Shown here: in pieces, positions 55,105-64,000 of the stretch | Layout of the letters: every line of letters starts with the position of its first letter | How positions within the stretch are numbered: the stretch's first letter is position 1 | Source: Mariprofundus sp. | Lineage (GTDB): Bacteria > Pseudomonadota > Zetaproteobacteria > Mariprofundales > Mariprofundaceae | DNA: 64,000 nucleotides | Assembly (NCBI GenBank): GCA_021772775.1 | Contig: JAJFLH010000035.1 | Location: forward strand, 124,001 to 188,000 | Reading direction: 5' to 3' | Program-made: the position numbers and the translations under genes | Notes under the pieces: generated by a model | Seen by the model: the letters and a program-made list of their open reading frames with translations, nothing else | Databases searched by the model: none | What the model was told of the DNA's origin: nothing

Positions 55105-55187
55105 TGCACTGTTATTGAAGAAATCAGCCATTAATCTGATTGCATAGTTTTGGCTTGTGAGATTCATAACCCTAGTCAGCCAACAAA

Positions 55188-55216
55188 AAAAGGGCGGCCC
55201 TTTCGGAACCGCCCTC
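55188..55216 (-). terminator. Intrinsic terminator
   Basis: On the minus strand a 7-bp GC-rich stem (AGGGCGG / CCGCCCT) is followed by a run of seven T. It is the clearest terminator in the window. It would end transcripts coming from the S24/antirepressor genes across the tRNA fragment, since no other minus-strand gene lies between. Confidence 0.8.
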
Positions 55217-55342
55217 TTTATCCATACCTGACAATAAAACCATTATATATCAACATCATAAGAAATATAGAATATTCAACTAACAAGAAAGAACCAGCAA
55301 ATCATACTAACTTTGTTAAAAGAACTGAAATCATTCCATTAT

Positions 55343-55399
55343 TAGAGCAACCGCCTCCTAAGGGGTAGGCCACAGGTTCGACTCCTGTCGAGGGCACCA
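55343..55399 (+). other. 3' fragment of a tRNA-Arg(CCU) gene, probable phage attachment core
   Basis: TAGAGCAACC through GGGCACCA includes the end of the D arm, an anticodon arm with loop CTCCTAA (anticodon CCU), a perfect T arm (ACAGG-TTCGACT-CCTGT) and the acceptor 3' strand CGAGGGC plus ACCA. The complementary 5' strand (GCCCTCG) and 5' half are absent upstream. The anticodon stem has one G-G mismatch. It is thus a broken tRNA, the typical result of integration into a tRNA 3' end. Confidence 0.8.
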
Positions 55400-55479
55400 T
55401 TTAAAAGGTTATTTTACAACGAAAAACACCACTTGTAATAACCATATGGAAAGGTCGGATTCTACAATTTCAGAAGCCG

Positions 55480-55839: not shown

Positions 55840-55864
55840 GCCCCGGTGTTACGAGCACCGGGGC
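55840..55864. terminator. GC-rich hairpin between antirepressor and S24 genes
   Basis: A 9-bp perfect stem (GCCCCGGTG / CACCGGGGC) with a 7-base loop. A T-rich tract (TTCTTTCTTATT) follows on the plus strand, whereas the minus side has AAATAT, so it may stop plus-strand readthrough or only attenuate the minus-strand operon. Confidence 0.55.
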
Positions 55865-55871
55865 TTCTTTC

Positions 55872-56600
55872 TTATTGAGGGCAAGCATCTGACTCAAAGA
55901 TGTTCGCCAGCTTCGCCAGGCCCTTTGGTGTAATAAGCACCTGCTCACGCACCTTCTCAGTTCCATCAGGCTGCAACATCATTGTTACCTTATGTTCAAG
56001 CAGACCTTGCTGCACTTTGTCCTGATAACCAAGCCAAGATGAGCCACCAGCGCGACGATAAATCCACTTCTTAAGCTTAAGCCAGGGGAATAGCGTTTTT
56101 TGTGGTTGGATCTGCAAAGCTTTAGCTGTATTGGTTATGTTCAAACTGCCATCCGCTGTAGCAATTCGATCAAGTGCCCCAGCCTTTGGCTTAAGCTCTT
56201 CCACCTGATGCTCAAGCGCCTGAACTTTCTTGGTTTGGATCGTTAATGCTTGCATCACGATCTCTTCATCGGTTAATGCAGATTGAGGGGCCAATGCCTT
56301 CTTCTCGCACTCGATGAAATAACGACGAACCTCTTTTCCTTTTTCCGACTGACTCATCATTGAAATGTTTTTAGCTGATTCAATTGAGAGAGCGTAATCA
56401 GTGCGAGTCTGTCCTGTTCTTGAAAGCTCCCCCTTTTGGGTGAGCTCTTCGAAATCTGCATATTTAACCAAATCAGCTCTTTTTATCTGCGCTTTTATCC
56501 AGCTGGAAAAGTCCTTTCCTATTTCAAGGAAAGAATGCAGCTCCCTTGCATCAACTGACTGCTTCAGTGTTTCGTGGTTTTGTATTGCTGGGTAACTCAT
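55872..56600 (-). CDS. ant: Phage antirepressor Ant (AntA/AntB domain plus KilAC domain)
   Basis: A 242-residue protein. The N-terminal AntA/AntB domain (VDARELHSFLEIGKDFSSWI and FEELTQKGEL) is followed by a coiled coil and a C-terminal KilAC domain (IATADGSLNITNTAKALQIQPQKTLFPWLKLKKWIYRR, LITPKGLAKLANIF). Antirepressors bind the phage main repressor and release lytic genes. Its start overlaps the Arc-like gene by four bases (ATGA), so it is translationally coupled to it as ant is to arc in P22. Confidence 0.92.
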   Translation of the reverse strand: MSYPAIQNHETLKQSVDARELHSFLEIGKDFSSWIKAQIKRADLVKYADFEELTQKGELSRTGQTRTDYALSIESAKNISMMSQSEKGKEVRRYFIECEKKALAPQSALTDEEIVMQALTIQTKKVQALEHQVEELKPKAGALDRIATADGSLNITNTAKALQIQPQKTLFPWLKLKKWIYRRAGGSSWLGYQDKVQQGLLEHKVTMMLQPDGTEKVREQVLITPKGLAKLANIFESDACPQ

Positions 56601-56776
56601 CGATTACCTCCGATTGCCTGGTTTACTTGCTCAATCCTCATCACCTTCTCAATGCAGTCGTTAACGACAAAATTTTGACTCCGGTTTGTTTCACCGGCTT
56701 TCTTTACCACCCAGTCCTTCAATGGCTGCAAAAGCCTTAACTGAACCCTTGCCGAGTAATCTTCCTTCTTTCGCAT
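56597..56776 (-). CDS. Arc-like ribbon-helix-helix repressor (59 aa)
   Basis: Too short for usual length cut-offs but well supported. It starts ATG 56776 after AAGGAGG (MRKKEDYSARVQLRLLQPLK) and ends VMRIEQVNQAIGGNR. The N-terminal strand VQLRL and following two helices match the Arc/Mnt ribbon-helix-helix fold. It lies immediately upstream of and overlaps ant, as arc does in P22 immI, where Arc represses the ant promoter. Its DNA sites are likely among the palindromes just upstream. Confidence 0.8.
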   Translation of the reverse strand: MRKKEDYSARVQLRLLQPLKDWVVKKAGETNRSQNFVVNDCIEKVMRIEQVNQAIGGNR

Positions 56777-56799
56777 GTAGTGCCTCCTTGCTGGGATGG

Positions 56800-56864
56800 C
56801 ACTATTTTAGTGTCAAGGGCCAATACACTATTTTAGTGCTATTCCATTGCACACTGTGTTAGTG
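56800..56864. promoter_or_regulatory. Array of three 13-bp operators at 26-bp spacing
   Basis: CACTATTTTAGTG at 56800-56812 and again at 56826-56838, and a variant CACTGTGTTAGTG at 56852-56864. Each is a CACTA/TAGTG inverted repeat with a three-base centre, and the starts are exactly 26 bp apart. A half site TAGTGC is near 56778. The array fills the 101-bp gap between the divergent ribbon-helix-helix genes and must overlap their promoters. A good TTGACA at 56810-56815 on the minus strand overlaps the first site. Confidence 0.8.
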
Positions 56865-56877
56865 CTATCTTTCGACC

Positions 56878-57111
56878 ATGGCCAAACAAGAGGATTACAC
56901 ACGCACTCAATTGCGGATTCCTGCCGATCTATATAACGCACTCCGAGAGGCTACAGATAAATCTGGCCGCTCTATGAATGCCGAGATGATCGCCCGGCTT
57001 GAAGGCAGTTTTGCAGATCAGGATAAGATTGATCGTTTGATGGATTATGCGGAAAGAACACTGAAACAGGTTGAGGCCATGAAGTCGAAACCGATTAAGG
57101 GCGATCAATGA
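56878..57111 (+). CDS. Mnt-like ribbon-helix-helix repressor
   Basis: A 77-residue Arc/Mnt family protein: YTRTQLRIPADLYNALREATDKSGRSMNAEMIARLEGSF. The TQLRIP strand would insert into the major groove, and the two helices dimerise. The C-terminal helix (about 55-72) may mediate tetramerisation, as in Mnt. It is divergent from the Arc-like gene, with the operator array between them, and overlaps the lipoprotein gene by four bases (ATGA). It is the likely lysogeny-side repressor of the antirepressor operon. Confidence 0.85.
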   Translation: MAKQEDYTRTQLRIPADLYNALREATDKSGRSMNAEMIARLEGSFADQDKIDRLMDYAERTLKQVEAMKSKPIKGDQ

Positions 57112-57347
57112 GGCTGCATGTCCATATAGCCGCATCACTCTTTATATTAACAGCCTGTTCATCTGAACCTGACAATTATGATGATTGTATATTAAAGTAC
57201 ATGCAGGGCACTGGAGGCACTCATGCTGCTACCTTAATTAGAGGAATCTGTGAAAAGAAATTTCCACGAGATCCACTAAAAAAACAAGCATCGCGCAGTG
57301 AGGGTGATGCTCCTTGGTTAGGCGACCCTATTGTTGATGATGAGTAA
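57108..57347 (+). CDS. Small phage-type lipoprotein
   Basis: A 79-residue protein with a lipoprotein signal (LFILTACSS, Cys as the lipidation site). The mature part has YDDCILKYMQGTGGTHAATLIRGICEKKF, i.e. a CIL...C pair that could form a disulfide; similar short C-x-L...C-KKF proteins occur in phages. It is coupled to the Mnt-like gene by an ATGA overlap, so is expressed with the lysogeny repressor. Phage lipoproteins of this kind can block superinfection; not shown here. Confidence 0.72.
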   Translation: MRLHVHIAASLFILTACSSEPDNYDDCILKYMQGTGGTHAATLIRGICEKKFPRDPLKKQASRSEGDAPWLGDPIVDDE

Positions 57348-57361
57348 GATGTTGATTTGGT

Positions 57362-57829
57362 GTGAGTAGGCTATTTTTCACGGCACTGTTTGCCTTTATG
57401 CTTCCAGAAGCATTGTCCGCTGGGCCTTACACTGCTGATCTTGAGCCGGCGGGCGCACTTATACCGTATGAAGATTTCTTTTTTCCATACCTCCCTTCCT
57501 TGGCCGCTGCTGCTGCATTGACTTTTTACCTTGGGCTGAAGGGATTTCTAAATATCCCAAGAAGACTGATCAGGGCTTATTCCACAAGAATACTGAAAGC
57601 TATCGAGACGCAAGGTTATACTTTTTGGATTATTGATAAGGTGGTTGAGTCACTGCTCTTTATCTTGCTACTGCTTCCTTACTTCGCGCTCATGCTGGCT
57701 CTTGTTTCTTTAGATAAGGTAGATAACCTTGCTATTGGCGCAGCCCTTGAGGGTATTCTTCTCGCGTTCGCTACCATTGCAGTGATGAGTGACAGAAGCC
57801 TTAAAAGCATTAGAGCAAAGTACACCTGA
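57362..57829 (+). CDS. Multi-spanning membrane protein of the Mnt-like operon (SieA-position)
   Basis: A 155-residue protein starting at GTG 57362. Hydrophobic stretches: N-terminal segment (about 4-20), LPSLAAAAALTFYLGLKGF, VVESLLFILLLLPYFALMLALVSL and AIGAALEGILLAFATIAVM, making three or four TM helices, with a basic loop IPRRLIRAYSTRIL between. In P22 the gene between the ejection protein gene and mnt is sieA, an inner-membrane superinfection-exclusion protein of about this size. Position and topology fit; sequence homology was not tested. Confidence 0.65.
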   Translation: MSRLFFTALFAFMLPEALSAGPYTADLEPAGALIPYEDFFFPYLPSLAAAAALTFYLGLKGFLNIPRRLIRAYSTRILKAIETQGYTFWIIDKVVESLLFILLLLPYFALMLALVSLDKVDNLAIGAALEGILLAFATIAVMSDRSLKSIRAKYT

Positions 57830-57863: not shown

Positions 57864-58082
57864 ATGGAGGCTGAAGTTGCCGGTTTTAGTTGGGTAGCTT
57901 TCTGGGTTGTGTGCATTCCGCTTTCAGCGTGTCTTTTTCTCGATCTTGATTTAGATAGAGATGAACATGAAAATCATGGTGAGTACCTATGGAGAATGTT
58001 CCCTACGGTATTCATTGCCACTGCTGGATCTATTATGTGGGCCTCTATATCGGGCACCGTTATTGGCTACTTGCTCGCTTAA
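57864..58082 (+). CDS. Small two-TM membrane protein
   Basis: A 72-residue protein with two hydrophobic helices (VAFWVVCIPLSACLFLDL and FIATAGSIMWASISGTVIGYLL) separated by a charged loop (DLDRDEHENHGEYLWRM). It follows the preceding membrane gene by 34 bases and its stop overlaps the end of the convergent polyvalent gene by four bases. Holins have two-TM topology too, but the association with the Mnt-like operon favours a lysogenic function. No family is recognised. Confidence 0.6.
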   Translation: MEAEVAGFSWVAFWVVCIPLSACLFLDLDLDRDEHENHGEYLWRMFPTVFIATAGSIMWASISGTVIGYLLA

Positions 58083-61000
58083 TAAAGAACATCCTCCAAG
58101 GCTTCTTTCGCTGAAACACGCACATGTGGAGTAACGTTAAGGACCGGGGTTAATCCAACAACTGTCTTGGCAATCTTCTTAGGCTTATCTTCCGCTGTTA
58201 AGGCTCCTGCAATTCTGGTTGCGTCACCTGCCAATGGGCCTGCTAAGTTATAGAAACGCCTCGCCCAATCACCATAACCATAGCGGTAAGGCATCATCAT
58301 GTTCATGTAGGCTGTTCCGTCACCTGTCATGCCTGAGCGATCTATGGCCGCCACCACACGTTTCCAGTGATCCTCCTCCATCAAGTACACGTCTTCCCTG
58401 TCGTCATATTTCCATGCTTCACGCAGGAACTGAACGGCATACGCCACAGAGACCATGATAAGAATAGGAATGATTGGCCGCACCTTATCGCGCATGCGTG
58501 GGTATCGCGCCATATCTACAAGAAGCTTTTTCAAGAATGTGTTGGAGTGAACGCTCGTAAATGATTTAAACTGAAACATCACTTGGCCAATTGGGTTTGA
58601 CATAATCCGAGGTAGCGTTGCGCCTATTGGCGTGGTGATAACCTGCTGTGCAAACCTCTGTGCTCCCATGTTGACGTTTTCATAGAACGGGTCTGATTTA
58701 CTAAATCCATCAGCCGCCCATTTTGCAGCAGCAGCCGGATCAAGCCCGAAGTCCTTTAGCTCCATGACAAATTGAGCGCGATCTTTCCCTTTGGAGTTGC
58801 CGACCTTTTTAGCCAGTTGGGAAATATGGTCTTGAGCCATGCCGAATGAAATCATACGCTGAACGTTGGTTAACTGCTCAAGCATAGTCATCTTCATGAA
58901 TGCGTTGGTCATCTTGGATGAAACGCCACCAAAGCGTTGCTGAAAGGCTTGTTCCATGCCGCTCTGTGAGGCTACCCCTAAACGCTCTGTTAATTCACGC
59001 ATCTGTGACTTAGGAATCATCCTATTGCCTGTCGTGGCCTTCAATACTGTAGCCGTGCCTTCACGCATCGCTTCAGCGAAGCCTTTAAACAGGTGTTTGG
59101 TGAAATTCGCGCCATTACCAAGCTTCACATAAGGCATCATGGTTTCAGGGATCGAGGCCAAAAGAACCATGCCAAGGTGAGCCATCACGCTAAAATTCCT
59201 TGCTGTCTGGCTTAGTCTTCTGACGCCTGGATGCATAGCCTCTTGCTTACCCTGCATCCGGTCTGAAAGGAAGTTTATCGATTCAATCAGGTCGTTCATG
59301 TCAGCGAACTTTTCTGAACGTGGAAGCTTATCGTATTGCTTCACAGCTTCGACAGCCAACGCCTCCAGTTTGCTATTATTTACCCCCGCAACCCGCGCAT
59401 ATTCAGAGCGCTTTACAACACTGCTAATATGACGACCTAGCACCGGCTCAATTTCACGTACAAGGAACTGCTTCAGATCAGCATAAGGGACGTCAATAAC
59501 ACGACCTTTTTCAAACGATCCTTTTCGCGCATTACCAACACGCTTGTTGTATCTCTTACCAGCCTTCTTAATCACCTTGCCGTCTTCATTTAGTTCAATG
59601 TGGTGATCGGAAAAGTTCTGGAACATGCCGTCATTCTCGACGATGTTCATATATACCTGTTCGCCGTTCATGCCCTGCTTGTCCACCAGATCAATAAATA
59701 CCTCCTTGTTCTTGCGCAGCTCCTTCACATCATAAACACGCGGGAAATAGTCTTTTAATCGATTAACTTCTATGCCTGCCTCGGCCATGTAATCGCCAAG
59801 CTCATCAAGTAGTTTTTTGAATGGTTTCGCGTCCTCAAGAACAGACAGTGCAACATTGTCGCCGTTCAAGGCATCAACAAGTATCTTCTGGAAACCCTTG
59901 CTCTTATACCTCTTCGGCAAGCCCTCCATTAGCCCTTCAATGCGTTTAAAGAAATGTCCTTTCCGCTCCTGCTCGCGTTGAACCATATCAAGCCCATCCA
60001 GCACGCGGTTCTCATGGGACGCATCTTTATAAAACATATCAGAAATTTGCTTCGTCGCTGGGACGCCAAAGTCTCGAACAATCTGCGTAGGACTGAAGTA
60101 CATCCACTTGGCAAAGCTCATAGCAACGTCAGCCGTGCCGCTATGCTTGATCGTGTTCGCTATGCTTTTGGATTCTTTTTTGATTGCTTTAGCTTCTTCT
60201 TTAACGGTTGCTTCACTGGTCTTTCTAAATAAAGCATCATCACCTTCAGGGAAGTTTTGCTGTGTCCTGCTGCCGTTTTTTATGCCTTTGGAGATACTAA
60301 TTACAAGGCGGCGCAGCTCGCTCCGGCTGGTTGGGCCTTTACTTAACCCTACACTTCTCAGTGCCTTGTTTATGAGTGCAAGAATACTATCGAAAAAGTC
60401 TTTTACTCCTGAAGGTTGCTTCGTTGCAATATCTGCAAATACCTCTTCCGCCTTCACGTCTTCTGACTTGTCGCTGTAGTCCTTTTCAATCTTTTCCCAG
60501 ATCACCTTCAGTGAAGGCTCATTTCTGGACGCTAAGATCTTGTCGAGAATAGTCCTTTTGTCAGCCGGATTAAAAGTGTTGAGGCCGTAGTGACCAAGGA
60601 TTTCATGGCGGAGGGTTTCTCTGGCATCTCGGACTGACGATTGACTAGAAGCGGCAATGAGAAGAACTCCGGCTCTTGGGAGGTAGGCTCCTTTAATGAC
60701 TCCTTCTTTTTCGATACTTCCTTTTGGCCCATACAAGTCCTCCTGAGTCTGCCTTACAATAACTCTTAGCGGTATATTACCATTATAGGAAGATACAAAC
60801 TCATCTGCAACTTTTTGAACGGACTGCACAGACATTCCTGATTCATTTCCATCGCCATAAACTACTGAACCATCGCTAAATAATGGTGCGTTATTCTTGT
60901 TCTTTTTCTTTTTCGCCACTGTTCTTTTGTTGCTCTCAAATGAAGCGTAAGCCTTGCTGATTGCTAACAGGTCTTGCGGTTTCAGCTTACCAATTAGAAC

Positions 61001-64000
61001 ACCCGTGTGTCGGTACAGTGCGATTTTAACAGCTGCGATAAACTCACGAACCCATTTTGCAACAGACTGTGGGGCTGATTGCGCATCGTTCACGTACCCT
61101 TCAACAGCATAACCGGCTAATTCATCAAGAAGGTGCTCTTCTCTGGTGTCTGCCGGGATTCGATCAAATGCGGCTTGGAAGAACTTGTTTACACTACCTG
61201 ACGTTTTGGATGCTGTACGATAGATATTCGAGAGCTGCTTCATTAACTTGGCATGTTTTTTCTTACCTAAGAAATCAGGTGCAAAGCCATCTATATCCAT
61301 GGAAGCATGTGTTAGCTCATGCCAGGCTGTGGCGCTTATACCCTTACGCGTGTTCTCTTTTGCAATCACATATGCTTTGTCGAGATGGTACACGCCTTTG
61401 AACTTTTTACCTACGGAGTGCAGCTTACCTTTACTGTCTCCTTCATCAGACATGATCTGCAACTTACCTTTATCAAGCATCTTAGCCAGGTGCCTATCCT
61501 TGCGTAATTCCGCTTCGGCTTCTGCGGTAGTTAATGCACCGACCTGGTCGAATTTACTTAAATCCGCTTCTGTGCTATAATTCGCCTCGGAGTCGCTTTG
61601 GTTCAAAGCCCTCGGCAATTGGAGCCGAGCAAACTGGAACCATTTGCGACTCTTTTTCATGTTTGCATAAAGTAATCGACCATCTTCAACCTGACGTTTA
61701 AAAAAGTTATTCCTATCTTTTGAATAAACGCTCCCAATTGCATTAACTTGAACACCGCCGTTCTCAACATTTAAATGCAATGTTGCAATCACAGTTTTTC
61801 CATCATGTTTCAATTCAGTCATTACGACCATTGAGTTCTTCTGTGTTGCAGAACTAAACACCATGATTGGATCGGCAATTGCCTTGGGGATCTGCTTCAG
61901 GGTGTCTGCTGGTAAAATGTGCTTATCGTTTATAACTTTATTAGCCACCTTCTGGCTCATAGTAACAGGCAGGTCTTCCGCTCCCACCATCTGTAACACA
62001 CCAGGAGTTTTCCCTACATTTAAAAGCTTATAGCGCCCAAGGCTCCCCGACACAAAGGCATCTACATCATCAGAGAACTTGGCGGCATCTTCTTTAGAGT
62101 AAAGATGTGTTCCGCCCCCCTCAGGTTTGCTTGCATCATTTTTTTCATTAGAGTTCACCGATGGGTCACTTTGGTTCAGCATCCCCGGCAATTGTAGCCG
62201 GGCTTTCCTGTTCTTCTGTGACTTATTGGGGTGCTCCGGCAGCGATTCGTCACCCTTATCCGGAAGGGCCGTTTTCTTAGCGGCCTTTTCTGGTGTACTT
62301 GCTTCTATAGTGGGAACTTTCACCACCTTCTTATCTTTGAGATAAACAGGTGTAATGGTAGTTGCTCCATCCACCATCATCATCATGGATCGATATCTAT
62401 ATTTACCATCGTCAGAAACCAAAATTGATTTATAATCTTTTGAAGCCTTGCGCCACAACTCTGCGGCAACCTCATACCCATTATCCGGATCATTCACTAT
62501 TGGCAGTTTCAGTGCAGCTTGCTTGCTGACCTTTTCAGCTTCTTTGTATGCAGCTTTTGATGGAGAATTAGCCTTTGGCTGTCCATTCTCATGCGTTTCA
62601 CCTGATTTATAGGAAGCCAACAGCTGCTTGGCTTGCTTCAAGTCTTTTTCAGCAGCGACCACTTTGTTGTACTGGTCGGAAAGTTTGTTATTCATCGCAT
62701 CGCGTTGCTTGCCCATCTTGTAATTAGAGCGGCCAGCAACAAAAGAACCGGGGATGTTGTCAGACTCGTTTAAGCGATCCATCTCCTTCTGCTGTTGATT
62801 AACTTCGCTTTCAGCAGCGGAGACATTTATTTCAAGATTGCGCACGACTTGGGGCGATACGCCTTCAGGTAGTGGCTTGGTTTCTTTTTTGGGTGAAGCT
62901 GGCTGTTTGGCTGTTTTTTCTGACTGTGCTATACTTGCGGCATCATGGGCTGGTTGTGAAGATAGTTTGCCACCTTCACTGGTAACGCTAGACGTGTCCA
63001 TACTGTGTCTAACGCCAGCCCTTTTTTCATAGCTTGTCAGAAGCCATGTTTTACCTTTCCCGAACCACTCTAAGCTGATTGTTCCTTTATGTTCCCCTGA
63101 TTCAATTTGGATTCTATTATTTGTCTTGCTAACTACAGTCATTGATTCAATAACACTTTGCAGATCATCAACAACTTCGGGATGAAACTTAATCAACTTG
63201 GACAAGCCGAAACCATCGCCTTTTCCTGTGCCTTCCTTGCCCCATACCAAATCAATATCACCTATTTCAGGGTGCGACAATGCGGCTACGGCTTCGCCGC
63301 CTTTGTTTTCTCTCAGCTTTGCAATAGCTCCCTTGGCATCATGCTTGAACTCGGCATGAATTGTTCCGAAATCTCCAACCTTTTTGTTGGCTTCAACAAT
63401 ATGGTCGTTATTGCTGACTGAATCGGTTTCAGGCTCCGCTACAGGTTTTGTGGAGCGCTCAGAATCTTCAATACTCGTCTGCTTCTTCGCTGACTCGCGG
63501 CCAGCAACATCAAGAAGAGATCCGCCTTTAATCGATTGATCACCACCACTGATAAGATCGTCCGATACTTTCGGCTTATCCAGTTCAAAGAGATTGTCTT
63601 GTGGAGTTGGTTTCTTCTTGGCTTTGCCTGCTTTGGATGGTTCAGCAGTGAGTGTTAGGCTTTCTTCTTGCCTCGGTAAATTTCCCCGGTTTTCAGCACT
63701 GTTGTTTTGCCCATCCGATCCGCCAGACGCTTCGCTTGCTCGTCCGTCAGTTCTTTGCCCTTCTTCGGTAGAACCATTAACTGTTTCATTCGTCGCATCC
63801 TCTTTCTGTAAATCATCAAGGCTTCGCGCCTGCGATGGCAACATATCACCATCGATGAAGATATAACCACCATGCTCTGCGGCCTCTTCTATGTTGTCCA
63901 AATAAGCATCAGACAATGAAGCCGCATGTTTAATGTACGCCTCTCCACCTAATTCTTCAATAGCGATAGCGTCATTGTGCTTTTGTGTGTCTTCCGCTTC
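58079..64000 (-). CDS. Giant polyvalent phage protein (partial, runs off the right edge)
   Basis: At least 1,973 codons; the frame is open through 64,000, so the TTG at 63916 is not the true start. From the N-side: a nuclease-like domain (about 63,400-63,030; GEAVAALSHPEIGDIDLVWG, FGLSKLIKFHPEVV, of PBECR type), a coiled-coil region, a MuF-C-like domain (about 62,060-61,640; ADPIMVFSSATQKNSMVVMTEL), a zincin-like HELTH near 61,320, a second one (HEILGH) near 60,600, long helical regions and a hydrophobic stretch (IPILIMVSVAYAVQFL). The motif RLQLPxxLNQSD occurs twice (near 62,185 and 61,610). Such proteins are often injected with phage DNA. Confidence 0.82.
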   Translation of the reverse strand, partial: EAEDTQKHNDAIAIEELGGEAYIKHAASLSDAYLDNIEEAAEHGGYIFIDGDMLPSQARSLDDLQKEDATNETVNGSTEEGQRTDGRASEASGGSDGQNNSAENRGNLPRQEESLTLTAEPSKAGKAKKKPTPQDNLFELDKPKVSDDLISGGDQSIKGGSLLDVAGRESAKKQTSIEDSERSTKPVAEPETDSVSNNDHIVEANKKVGDFGTIHAEFKHDAKGAIAKLRENKGGEAVAALSHPEIGDIDLVWGKEGTGKGDGFGLSKLIKFHPEVVDDLQSVIESMTVVSKTNNRIQIESGEHKGTISLEWFGKGKTWLLTSYEKRAGVRHSMDTSSVTSEGGKLSSQPAHDAASIAQSEKTAKQPASPKKETKPLPEGVSPQVVRNLEINVSAAESEVNQQQKEMDRLNESDNIPGSFVAGRSNYKMGKQRDAMNNKLSDQYNKVVAAEKDLKQAKQLLASYKSGETHENGQPKANSPSKAAYKEAEKVSKQAALKLPIVNDPDNGYEVAAELWRKASKDYKSILVSDDGKYRYRSMMMMVDGATTITPVYLKDKKVVKVPTIEASTPEKAAKKTALPDKGDESLPEHPNKSQKNRKARLQLPGMLNQSDPSVNSNEKNDASKPEGGGTHLYSKEDAAKFSDDVDAFVSGSLGRYKLLNVGKTPGVLQMVGAEDLPVTMSQKVANKVINDKHILPADTLKQIPKAIADPIMVFSSATQKNSMVVMTELKHDGKTVIATLHLNVENGGVQVNAIGSVYSKDRNNFFKRQVEDGRLLYANMKKSRKWFQFARLQLPRALNQSDSEANYSTEADLSKFDQVGALTTAEAEAELRKDRHLAKMLDKGKLQIMSDEGDSKGKLHSVGKKFKGVYHLDKAYVIAKENTRKGISATAWHELTHASMDIDGFAPDFLGKKKHAKLMKQLSNIYRTASKTSGSVNKFFQAAFDRIPADTREEHLLDELAGYAVEGYVNDAQSAPQSVAKWVREFIAAVKIALYRHTGVLIGKLKPQDLLAISKAYASFESNKRTVAKKKKNKNNAPLFSDGSVVYGDGNESGMSVQSVQKVADEFVSSYNGNIPLRVIVRQTQEDLYGPKGSIEKEGVIKGAYLPRAGVLLIAASSQSSVRDARETLRHEILGHYGLNTFNPADKRTILDKILASRNEPSLKVIWEKIEKDYSDKSEDVKAEEVFADIATKQPSGVKDFFDSILALINKALRSVGLSKGPTSRSELRRLVISISKGIKNGSRTQQNFPEGDDALFRKTSEATVKEEAKAIKKESKSIANTIKHSGTADVAMSFAKWMYFSPTQIVRDFGVPATKQISDMFYKDASHENRVLDGLDMVQREQERKGHFFKRIEGLMEGLPKRYKSKGFQKILVDALNGDNVALSVLEDAKPFKKLLDELGDYMAEAGIEVNRLKDYFPRVYDVKELRKNKEVFIDLVDKQGMNGEQVYMNIVENDGMFQNFSDHHIELNEDGKVIKKAGKRYNKRVGNARKGSFEKGRVIDVPYADLKQFLVREIEPVLGRHISSVVKRSEYARVAGVNNSKLEALAVEAVKQYDKLPRSEKFADMNDLIESINFLSDRMQGKQEAMHPGVRRLSQTARNFSVMAHLGMVLLASIPETMMPYVKLGNGANFTKHLFKGFAEAMREGTATVLKATTGNRMIPKSQMRELTERLGVASQSGMEQAFQQRFGGVSSKMTNAFMKMTMLEQLTNVQRMISFGMAQDHISQLAKKVGNSKGKDRAQFVMELKDFGLDPAAAAKWAADGFSKSDPFYENVNMGAQRFAQQVITTPIGATLPRIMSNPIGQVMFQFKSFTSVHSNTFLKKLLVDMARYPRMRDKVRPIIPILIMVSVAYAVQFLREAWKYDDREDVYLMEEDHWKRVVAAIDRSGMTGDGTAYMNMMMPYRYGYGDWARRFYNLAGPLAGDATRIAGALTAEDKPKKIAKTVVGLTPVLNVTPHVRVSAKEALEDVLY

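Follow-up and report, generated by a model that had tools for sequence, protein, structure and literature searches.

We analyzed a 64,000-nt stretch of Mariprofundus sp. DNA (the window, whose numbering is used below unless a contig is named) and find three genes of a putative phage switch near its right end (Table 1). Two lie on the minus strand, encoding an Arc-like ribbon-helix-helix (RHH) protein and an antirepressor (Ant), and the stop codon of arc overlaps the start codon of ant by 4 nt (ATGA). The third, encoding a Mnt-like RHH protein, diverges from them on the plus strand. The first-pass annotation had read the locus in this way, as an Arc-like gene coupled to an AntA/KilAC antirepressor, with a second RHH gene divergent from it and operators between the two. 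The coordinates, the gene overlap and the Pfam assignments bear out both gene claims, and three palindromes in the gap agree, at the level of sequence, with the claim of operators.

Table 1. Features of the switch locus and its surroundings, in window coordinates.
Feature	Position	Strand	Remarks
Left attachment repeat	55182-55219		38-bp copy of the groEL terminator; its counterpart beside groEL (C29:229198-229235) is 97% identical
Headless S24 protein, 107 aa	55480-55803	-	Copy of CI C-terminal domain; own ribosome-binding site (RBS)
Hairpin, GC-rich	55840-55864		Between ant and S24 gene; no T run after it on the ant strand
Antirepressor Ant, 242 aa	55872-56600	-	AntA (about 56349-56555) and KilAC (about 55893-56213)
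Arc-like RHH repressor, 59 aa (predicted)	56597-56776	-	By profile, AF2 and Foldseek; strand R-x-Q-x-R; Shine-Dalgarno AAGGAGG
Operator 1 (predicted)	56800-56812		CACTATTTTAGTG; nearest arc-ant
TTGACA	56811-56816	- (arc-ant strand)	Touches operator 1
Operator 2 (predicted)	56826-56838		CACTATTTTAGTG
Operator 3 (predicted)	56852-56864		CACTGTGTTAGTG; ends 13 bp before the mnt-like start
Mnt-like RHH repressor, 77 aa (predicted)	56878-57111	+	Pfam Arc; PHROG Arc-like; AF2; strand R-x-Q-x-R
Small lipoprotein	57108-57347	+	LTAC lipobox; shares ATGA with the end of mnt
155-aa membrane-type protein	57362-57829	+	Downstream of mnt
72-aa membrane-type protein	57864-58082	+	Downstream of mnt

Two RHH proteins and an antirepressor

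The Mnt-like protein scores 32.1 bits against Pfam Arc (cut-off, 20.4), and its nearest solved structures in a phmmer search are those of Arc. Its AF2 model (pLDDT 86.6) has helices at residues 16-29 and 33-70. Mnt tetramerizes through its C-terminal helix; the long C-terminal helix of the window protein is predicted in a model of the monomer. The Arc-like protein gives no Pfam match above cut-off in a single-sequence search, and its match to the PHROG Arc-like repressor (E = 1e-3) is weak alone. Its profile, which includes 26 relatives, aligns with the Mnt-like profile (98% in hhalign; E = 3e-14). AlphaFold predicts a pair of helices with confidence (mean pLDDT 87), and the best Foldseek matches of this model are all RHH proteins (CopASO, MazE6, Arc, AmrZ, and CopG; probability about 0.9), with E values of only 0.1-0.4 because the chain is very short. 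The predicted fold is strand-helix-helix, and R-S occupies the loop ahead of helix B; RHH proteins form their strand in the dimer alone, and the monomer model does not show it. The protein is unconvincing as RHH by single-sequence search and convincing by profile, model and fold search, so that structure prediction and profile searches place both short proteins in the RHH family.

Ant matches Pfam AntA (72 bits, E = 6e-20), KilAC/ANT (101 bits, E = 5e-29) and the PHROG anti-repressor Ant (E = 1e-47). Judged by its domains, it is without doubt an AntA+KilAC antirepressor. The hairpin that follows ant is very stable (z about -4) and resembles a terminator on the opposite strand only.

The locus is situated at the left-hand, late-operon end of a ~50-kb prophage on contig C29 of a 3.12-Mb genome. 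The second copy of the attachment repeat (C29:229198-229235) adjoins an integrase gene (C29:227570-228958) and groEL. The prophage is apparently inserted at the groEL transcription terminator, of which each end has a copy. A partial tRNA-Arg(CCT) gene, consisting of the 3' half, lies within the prophage close to the left end (55343-55402); its 60 bp are 97% identical to the complete gene on contig C19, and it may be what is left of an earlier attachment site. The prophage gene set includes a terminase, a portal protein, a major head protein (capsid), the integrase and a CI repressor whose S24 domain is complete.

The switch module follows a late gene a short distance downstream, with the three small plus-strand genes between. 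The product of that late gene, a 2885-aa polyvalent protein of the ejected type, has a MuF_C and a PBECR1 (nuclease-like) domain. P22 immI likewise has a late-operon location after an ejection gene. The 2885-aa gene spans 58079-63916 and runs on to C29:190736, and its product has weak similarity to a virion RNA polymerase family. The three small genes encode a lipoprotein with very weak similarity to the Cor superinfection-exclusion family (E = 0.06) and two membrane-type proteins, the longer of which has no significant family in Pfam or PHROG. They are apparently co-transcribed with mnt and are likely expressed in the lysogen, where they could possibly act in superinfection exclusion, in parallel to sieA beside P22 mnt.

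Predicted operators and promoter signals between the divergent genes

The 101-bp gap between the divergent genes holds three 13-nt palindromes spaced 26 bp apart. When the gap was shuffled 20,000 times with dinucleotides preserved, a set of three matched-arm palindromes appeared only 3 times, and the exact 13-mer of operators 1 and 2 occurs nowhere else in the 3.12-Mb genome. A lone TAGTG half-site (56778-56782) directly precedes the start of arc. As read from the DNA, the operator set is one sequence type in three copies, with no separate Oarc and Omnt.

The arc-ant strand carries a TTGACA hexamer that no good -10 element follows in this window, and a sigma-70 promoter search of this window's gap returned nothing convincing. 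Across related modules (described below), TTGAC is present on the arc-ant strand in 33 of 43, and 23 of 43 have a good sigma-70 match on the ant strand, against 13% in shuffles. There is no sar-like RNA between arc and ant and no Rfam match at the site; the 4-nt gene overlap leaves no room for sar.

Related modules exchange their antirepressors

A divergent RHH pair with an antirepressor is also present in Pseudomonas phage PS-1, Paracoccus phage Pkon1, Acinetobacter phage Acba_1 and phage WC36-2. Direct searches of viral contigs with either small protein alone, and of phage records with the Arc-like protein, found nothing, so that profiles were needed. A scan of viral contigs that used only the Mnt-like profile gave 80 loci, 65 of them with a divergent RHH partner next door, which upholds the linkage that the first-pass annotation expected in other phages. 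When the scan was repeated with QKR-type proteins as seeds (named, as are the classes below, by their three contact residues), the partner was present in only 30 of 79 loci, and the 13 new pairs were too uniform for a separate matching test. One viral contig (L227, 3280-4342) carries two divergent RHH pairs in tandem.

The gene that follows the Arc-like gene matches PHROG antirepressor families in most of 40 modules. Its domain family varies widely: Bro-N (8), P22_AR_N (7), Rha (6), AntA (6), KilAC (5), KilA-N (4), and ORF6C (3), counts that overlap. The RHH pair thus serves as a constant platform for exchangeable antirepressors. Variability of the region is known in P22-like phages, where it has been called the "ant moron" (PMC2629481). 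The AntA/KilAC antirepressor had been taken as a sign of a mosaic module; it does sit in a P22-like layout, but antirepressors are swapped freely across these modules, and swapping is the rule, so that the mosaic is an ordinary one.

The two repressor genes differ in their translation signals. Most Arc-like genes (41 of 51 modules) are preceded by a Shine-Dalgarno sequence; among Mnt-like genes this holds for 1 of 56. The window fits this rule, with a strong AAGGAGG before the Arc-like gene and no Shine-Dalgarno sequence before the Mnt-like gene. The lambda cI gene is translated from a leaderless message, which the Shine-Dalgarno–less gene of the presumed maintenance repressor recalls.

Matched DNA-contact residues in paired repressors

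Arc contacts DNA through the strand residues Gln9, Asn11 and Arg13 (PMC12645479). At these positions both window proteins have R-Q-R, and the Mnt-like and Arc-like partners of four other modules also carry matched triples: RQR/RQR in PS-1 and WC36-2, RTR/RTR in Pkon1 and QNR/QNR in Acba_1. Among 43 non-redundant pairs, the residues at the Q9 and N11 positions are identical within the pair in 30 and 22 cases, compared with 12.4 and 6.3 after shuffling, and none of the other columns (39 columns) exceeds z = 3.4. In 56 non-redundant phage modules the counts are 41 and 31, against 17.2 and 9.2 when shuffled, with the next best column at z = 3.1. The signal persists when modules at least 60% identical in either protein are dropped: in the 21 that are left, 15 and 11 pairs are identical at the two positions, against 4.3 and 2.5 (p about 1e-4 for each contact position). 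Stricter clustering leaves six modules, and power is lost. A chromosomal replicate of the test has five pairs only and little power; several more chromosomal matches are likely AmrZ-type regulators, judged by size.

Away from the contacts, identity rises only a little (0.327 versus 0.293), and the window pair is 17% identical there. Matching is not universal, and roughly a third to a half of the pairs are incompletely matched (e.g., those with PGR partners).

The intergenic gaps follow the same classes. RQR modules have TAGTGAC/CACTA, and RTR modules have CAC(T/C)A..T(A/G)GTG. The QKR class has GGACC/GGTCC or ACCACGGTGGT, the HRR class TGACGCA, and the RAR class CTTCA. Gaps of one class share a motif and motifs differ between classes; operator sequence thus follows residue class. 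Half-sites are repeated at p < 0.05 in 18 of 43 gaps. The simplest reading of the matched contact residues and the class-specific motifs is that both proteins of a module use the same operators. A search of the literature outside subscription journals found no paper on matched specificity of paired Arc/Mnt-like repressors. What this covariation adds to present knowledge is evidence that points to shared sites for paired repressors and, with them, to a CI/Cro-like switch built from RHH proteins.

The alternative is a strict P22 scheme, in which each RHH protein has an operator of its own, so that the three CACTATTTTAGTG sites serve one protein and the site of the other went unrecognized. P22 itself is annotated with separate Oarc and Omnt, and the low identity of the window pair outside the strand shows how far Arc- and Mnt-like proteins differ. 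However, both window proteins present R-x-Q-x-R at the contacts, a single motif accounts for the entire gap, and it is the contact residues, not other columns, that are matched generally. We therefore consider separate operators unlikely here.

A headless S24 gene downstream of ant

The gene that follows ant encodes an S24 protein (Pfam S24, 50 bits) that shares 45% identity across 95 aa with the C-terminal domain of this prophage's CI. It aligns with the C-terminal domain of lambda CI (E = 1e-12) from just after the linker. The protein has neither the helix-turn-helix nor the linker and cleavage region, and it does not have the makeup of a self-cleaving repressor. The catalytic serine is kept (GDSM), and the lysine of the dyad is replaced by arginine (VFRLL). 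S24 relatives in viral contigs are all full-length CI proteins, and phrog_8558 in 398 genomes consists nearly only of full-length repressors; headless forms appear to be rare among relatives. Two unrelated chromosomes carry short S24 proteins without a DNA-binding domain and with the same Lys-to-Arg change (FRQL; L301, 5022-5339, and L303, 5159-5554), and no phage context was seen around either.

The headless protein is a possible candidate for a second antirepressor that would act through mixed oligomers with CI. There is an even chance, in our estimate, that this gene has another nature and is no partner of Ant, encoding instead a UmuD'-like polymerase subunit or persisting as the relic of a lost repressor. 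UmuD' likewise has no DNA-binding domain, a UmuD-like PHROG is matched (E = 1e-6), and the two chromosomal proteins with arginine at the same place are of uncertain role. Yet the protein is much nearer to CI C-terminal domains than to UmuD (E = 2e-3), no umuC lies beside the gene, and its reading frame is intact with an RBS present.

A proposed secondary immunity switch

We propose that the locus is probably a secondary immunity (antirepressor) switch of the P22 immI kind, in which two RHH repressors share three operators and, given that shared specificity, compete as CI and Cro do. Divergent promoters within the one gap would come under the control of both RHH proteins, acting on the same three palindromes. 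We infer that the Mnt-like protein serves lysogeny and the Arc-like protein lytic growth. In the lysogen, the Mnt-like protein, with its long C-terminal helix and its presumably weakly translated gene, would keep the arc-ant promoter off; no antirepressor would be made, and the main CI repressor would stand. When a naive cell is infected, arc-ant would be transcribed, and the well-translated Arc-like protein would build up together with Ant, bind the same operators and shut both promoters. Ant would thereby be limited to a burst, in which it might antagonize CI (or a heteroimmune repressor) and favor lysis, perhaps assisted by the headless CI domain.

It is also improbable that the module is a decayed remnant at the prophage end, whose switch no longer functions. 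It lies beside the attachment repeat, its ant-strand promoter is poor by consensus, and the headless S24 gene could be debris. In addition, no close relative of the whole module is present among 78 genomes of the same order, so that its activity cannot be judged by conservation. Against decay, however, no reading frame is broken, the genes overlap, a good RBS is present, and the predicted operators are perfect or nearly so. Elsewhere in the prophage, the genes for integrase, CI, terminase, portal and capsid look intact, and there is one for a 2885-aa ejected protein.

That the RHH genes are a toxin-antitoxin or partition system beside ant by accident is very improbable and was rejected: RHH folds are common among antitoxins and some homologues are labeled "partition protein ATPase" in PHROG, but the neighboring genes include no toxin or ParA gene, the label cannot fit a 77-aa RHH protein, arc overlaps ant, and the same RHH pair recurs beside many unrelated antirepressor families.

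Until now, P22 immI has been seen as an accessory feature particular to a single group of phages. Our results indicate that its two-repressor box recurs in many phages, with antirepressors freely exchanged, and covariation at just two variable DNA-reading positions predicts that the paired proteins compete for the same sites. A wider generalization, which we regard as possible rather than probable, is that immI-type modules form a general class of RHH double-repressor switches. Both repressors would be co-selected for the same, usually tandem multi-copy, operators, and the maintenance gene would be one without a Shine-Dalgarno sequence. The split operators of P22 would then be the exception, and pairs of operators and contact residues would make up a natural RHH recognition code. 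Here, the switch might also drive a non-cleavable headless CI domain as a dominant-negative second antirepressor. If the paired proteins do compete for the same sites, the CI/Cro design would have evolved a second time, independently, and the modules would provide a natural example set for reading how RHH strands recognize DNA.

Comparison with known systems

P22 was the right relative for the first-pass annotation to name, and the layout, the orientation of the genes and the late-operon place after the ejection-protein gene do agree: both loci have divergent mnt and arc-ant, RHH repressors with operators between, and an antirepressor. The claim that the layout is exactly that of P22 is too strong. 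Unlike the single operator type in three copies found here, P22 has Oarc and Omnt, and its contact residues are only partly matched (Arc, QNR; Mnt, HNR). P22 has sar between arc and ant, where the window has overlapping genes, and its Ant is of the P22_AR type. Shine-Dalgarno–like sequences, as read from the P22 sequence, precede both arc and mnt, in contrast to the window's mnt. The headless CI domain is an addition that P22 immI does not have.

Two other phages have pairs with matched recognition residues. In PS-1 (gp66 / gp67-gp68-gp69), a divergent RHH pair, both R-Q-R, is accompanied by TAGTG half-sites, and an AntA-type Ant adjoins the Arc-like gene. In contrast to the window, this Ant apparently lacks KilAC (read from the sequence), a Rha-like antirepressor comes next, and there is no S24 gene; the PS-1 annotation does not name the locus as an immI switch. 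Pkon1 (p51 / p52-p53) has a divergent Arc-like pair, both R-T-R, with similar CACYA..TRGTG operators, but its antirepressor is of the KilA-N type. The window Ant is a clear member of the AntA/AntB-KilAC family, with 43% identity to AntB of Aaphi23, although that gene follows cI-cro and does not lie beside an RHH pair.

The proposed mechanism resembles that of lambda CI and Cro on OR1-3, where two repressors also act on three shared operators between divergent promoters. The lambda proteins are unrelated helix-turn-helix proteins and control early genes rather than an antirepressor, and the RHH switch may be their convergent counterpart.
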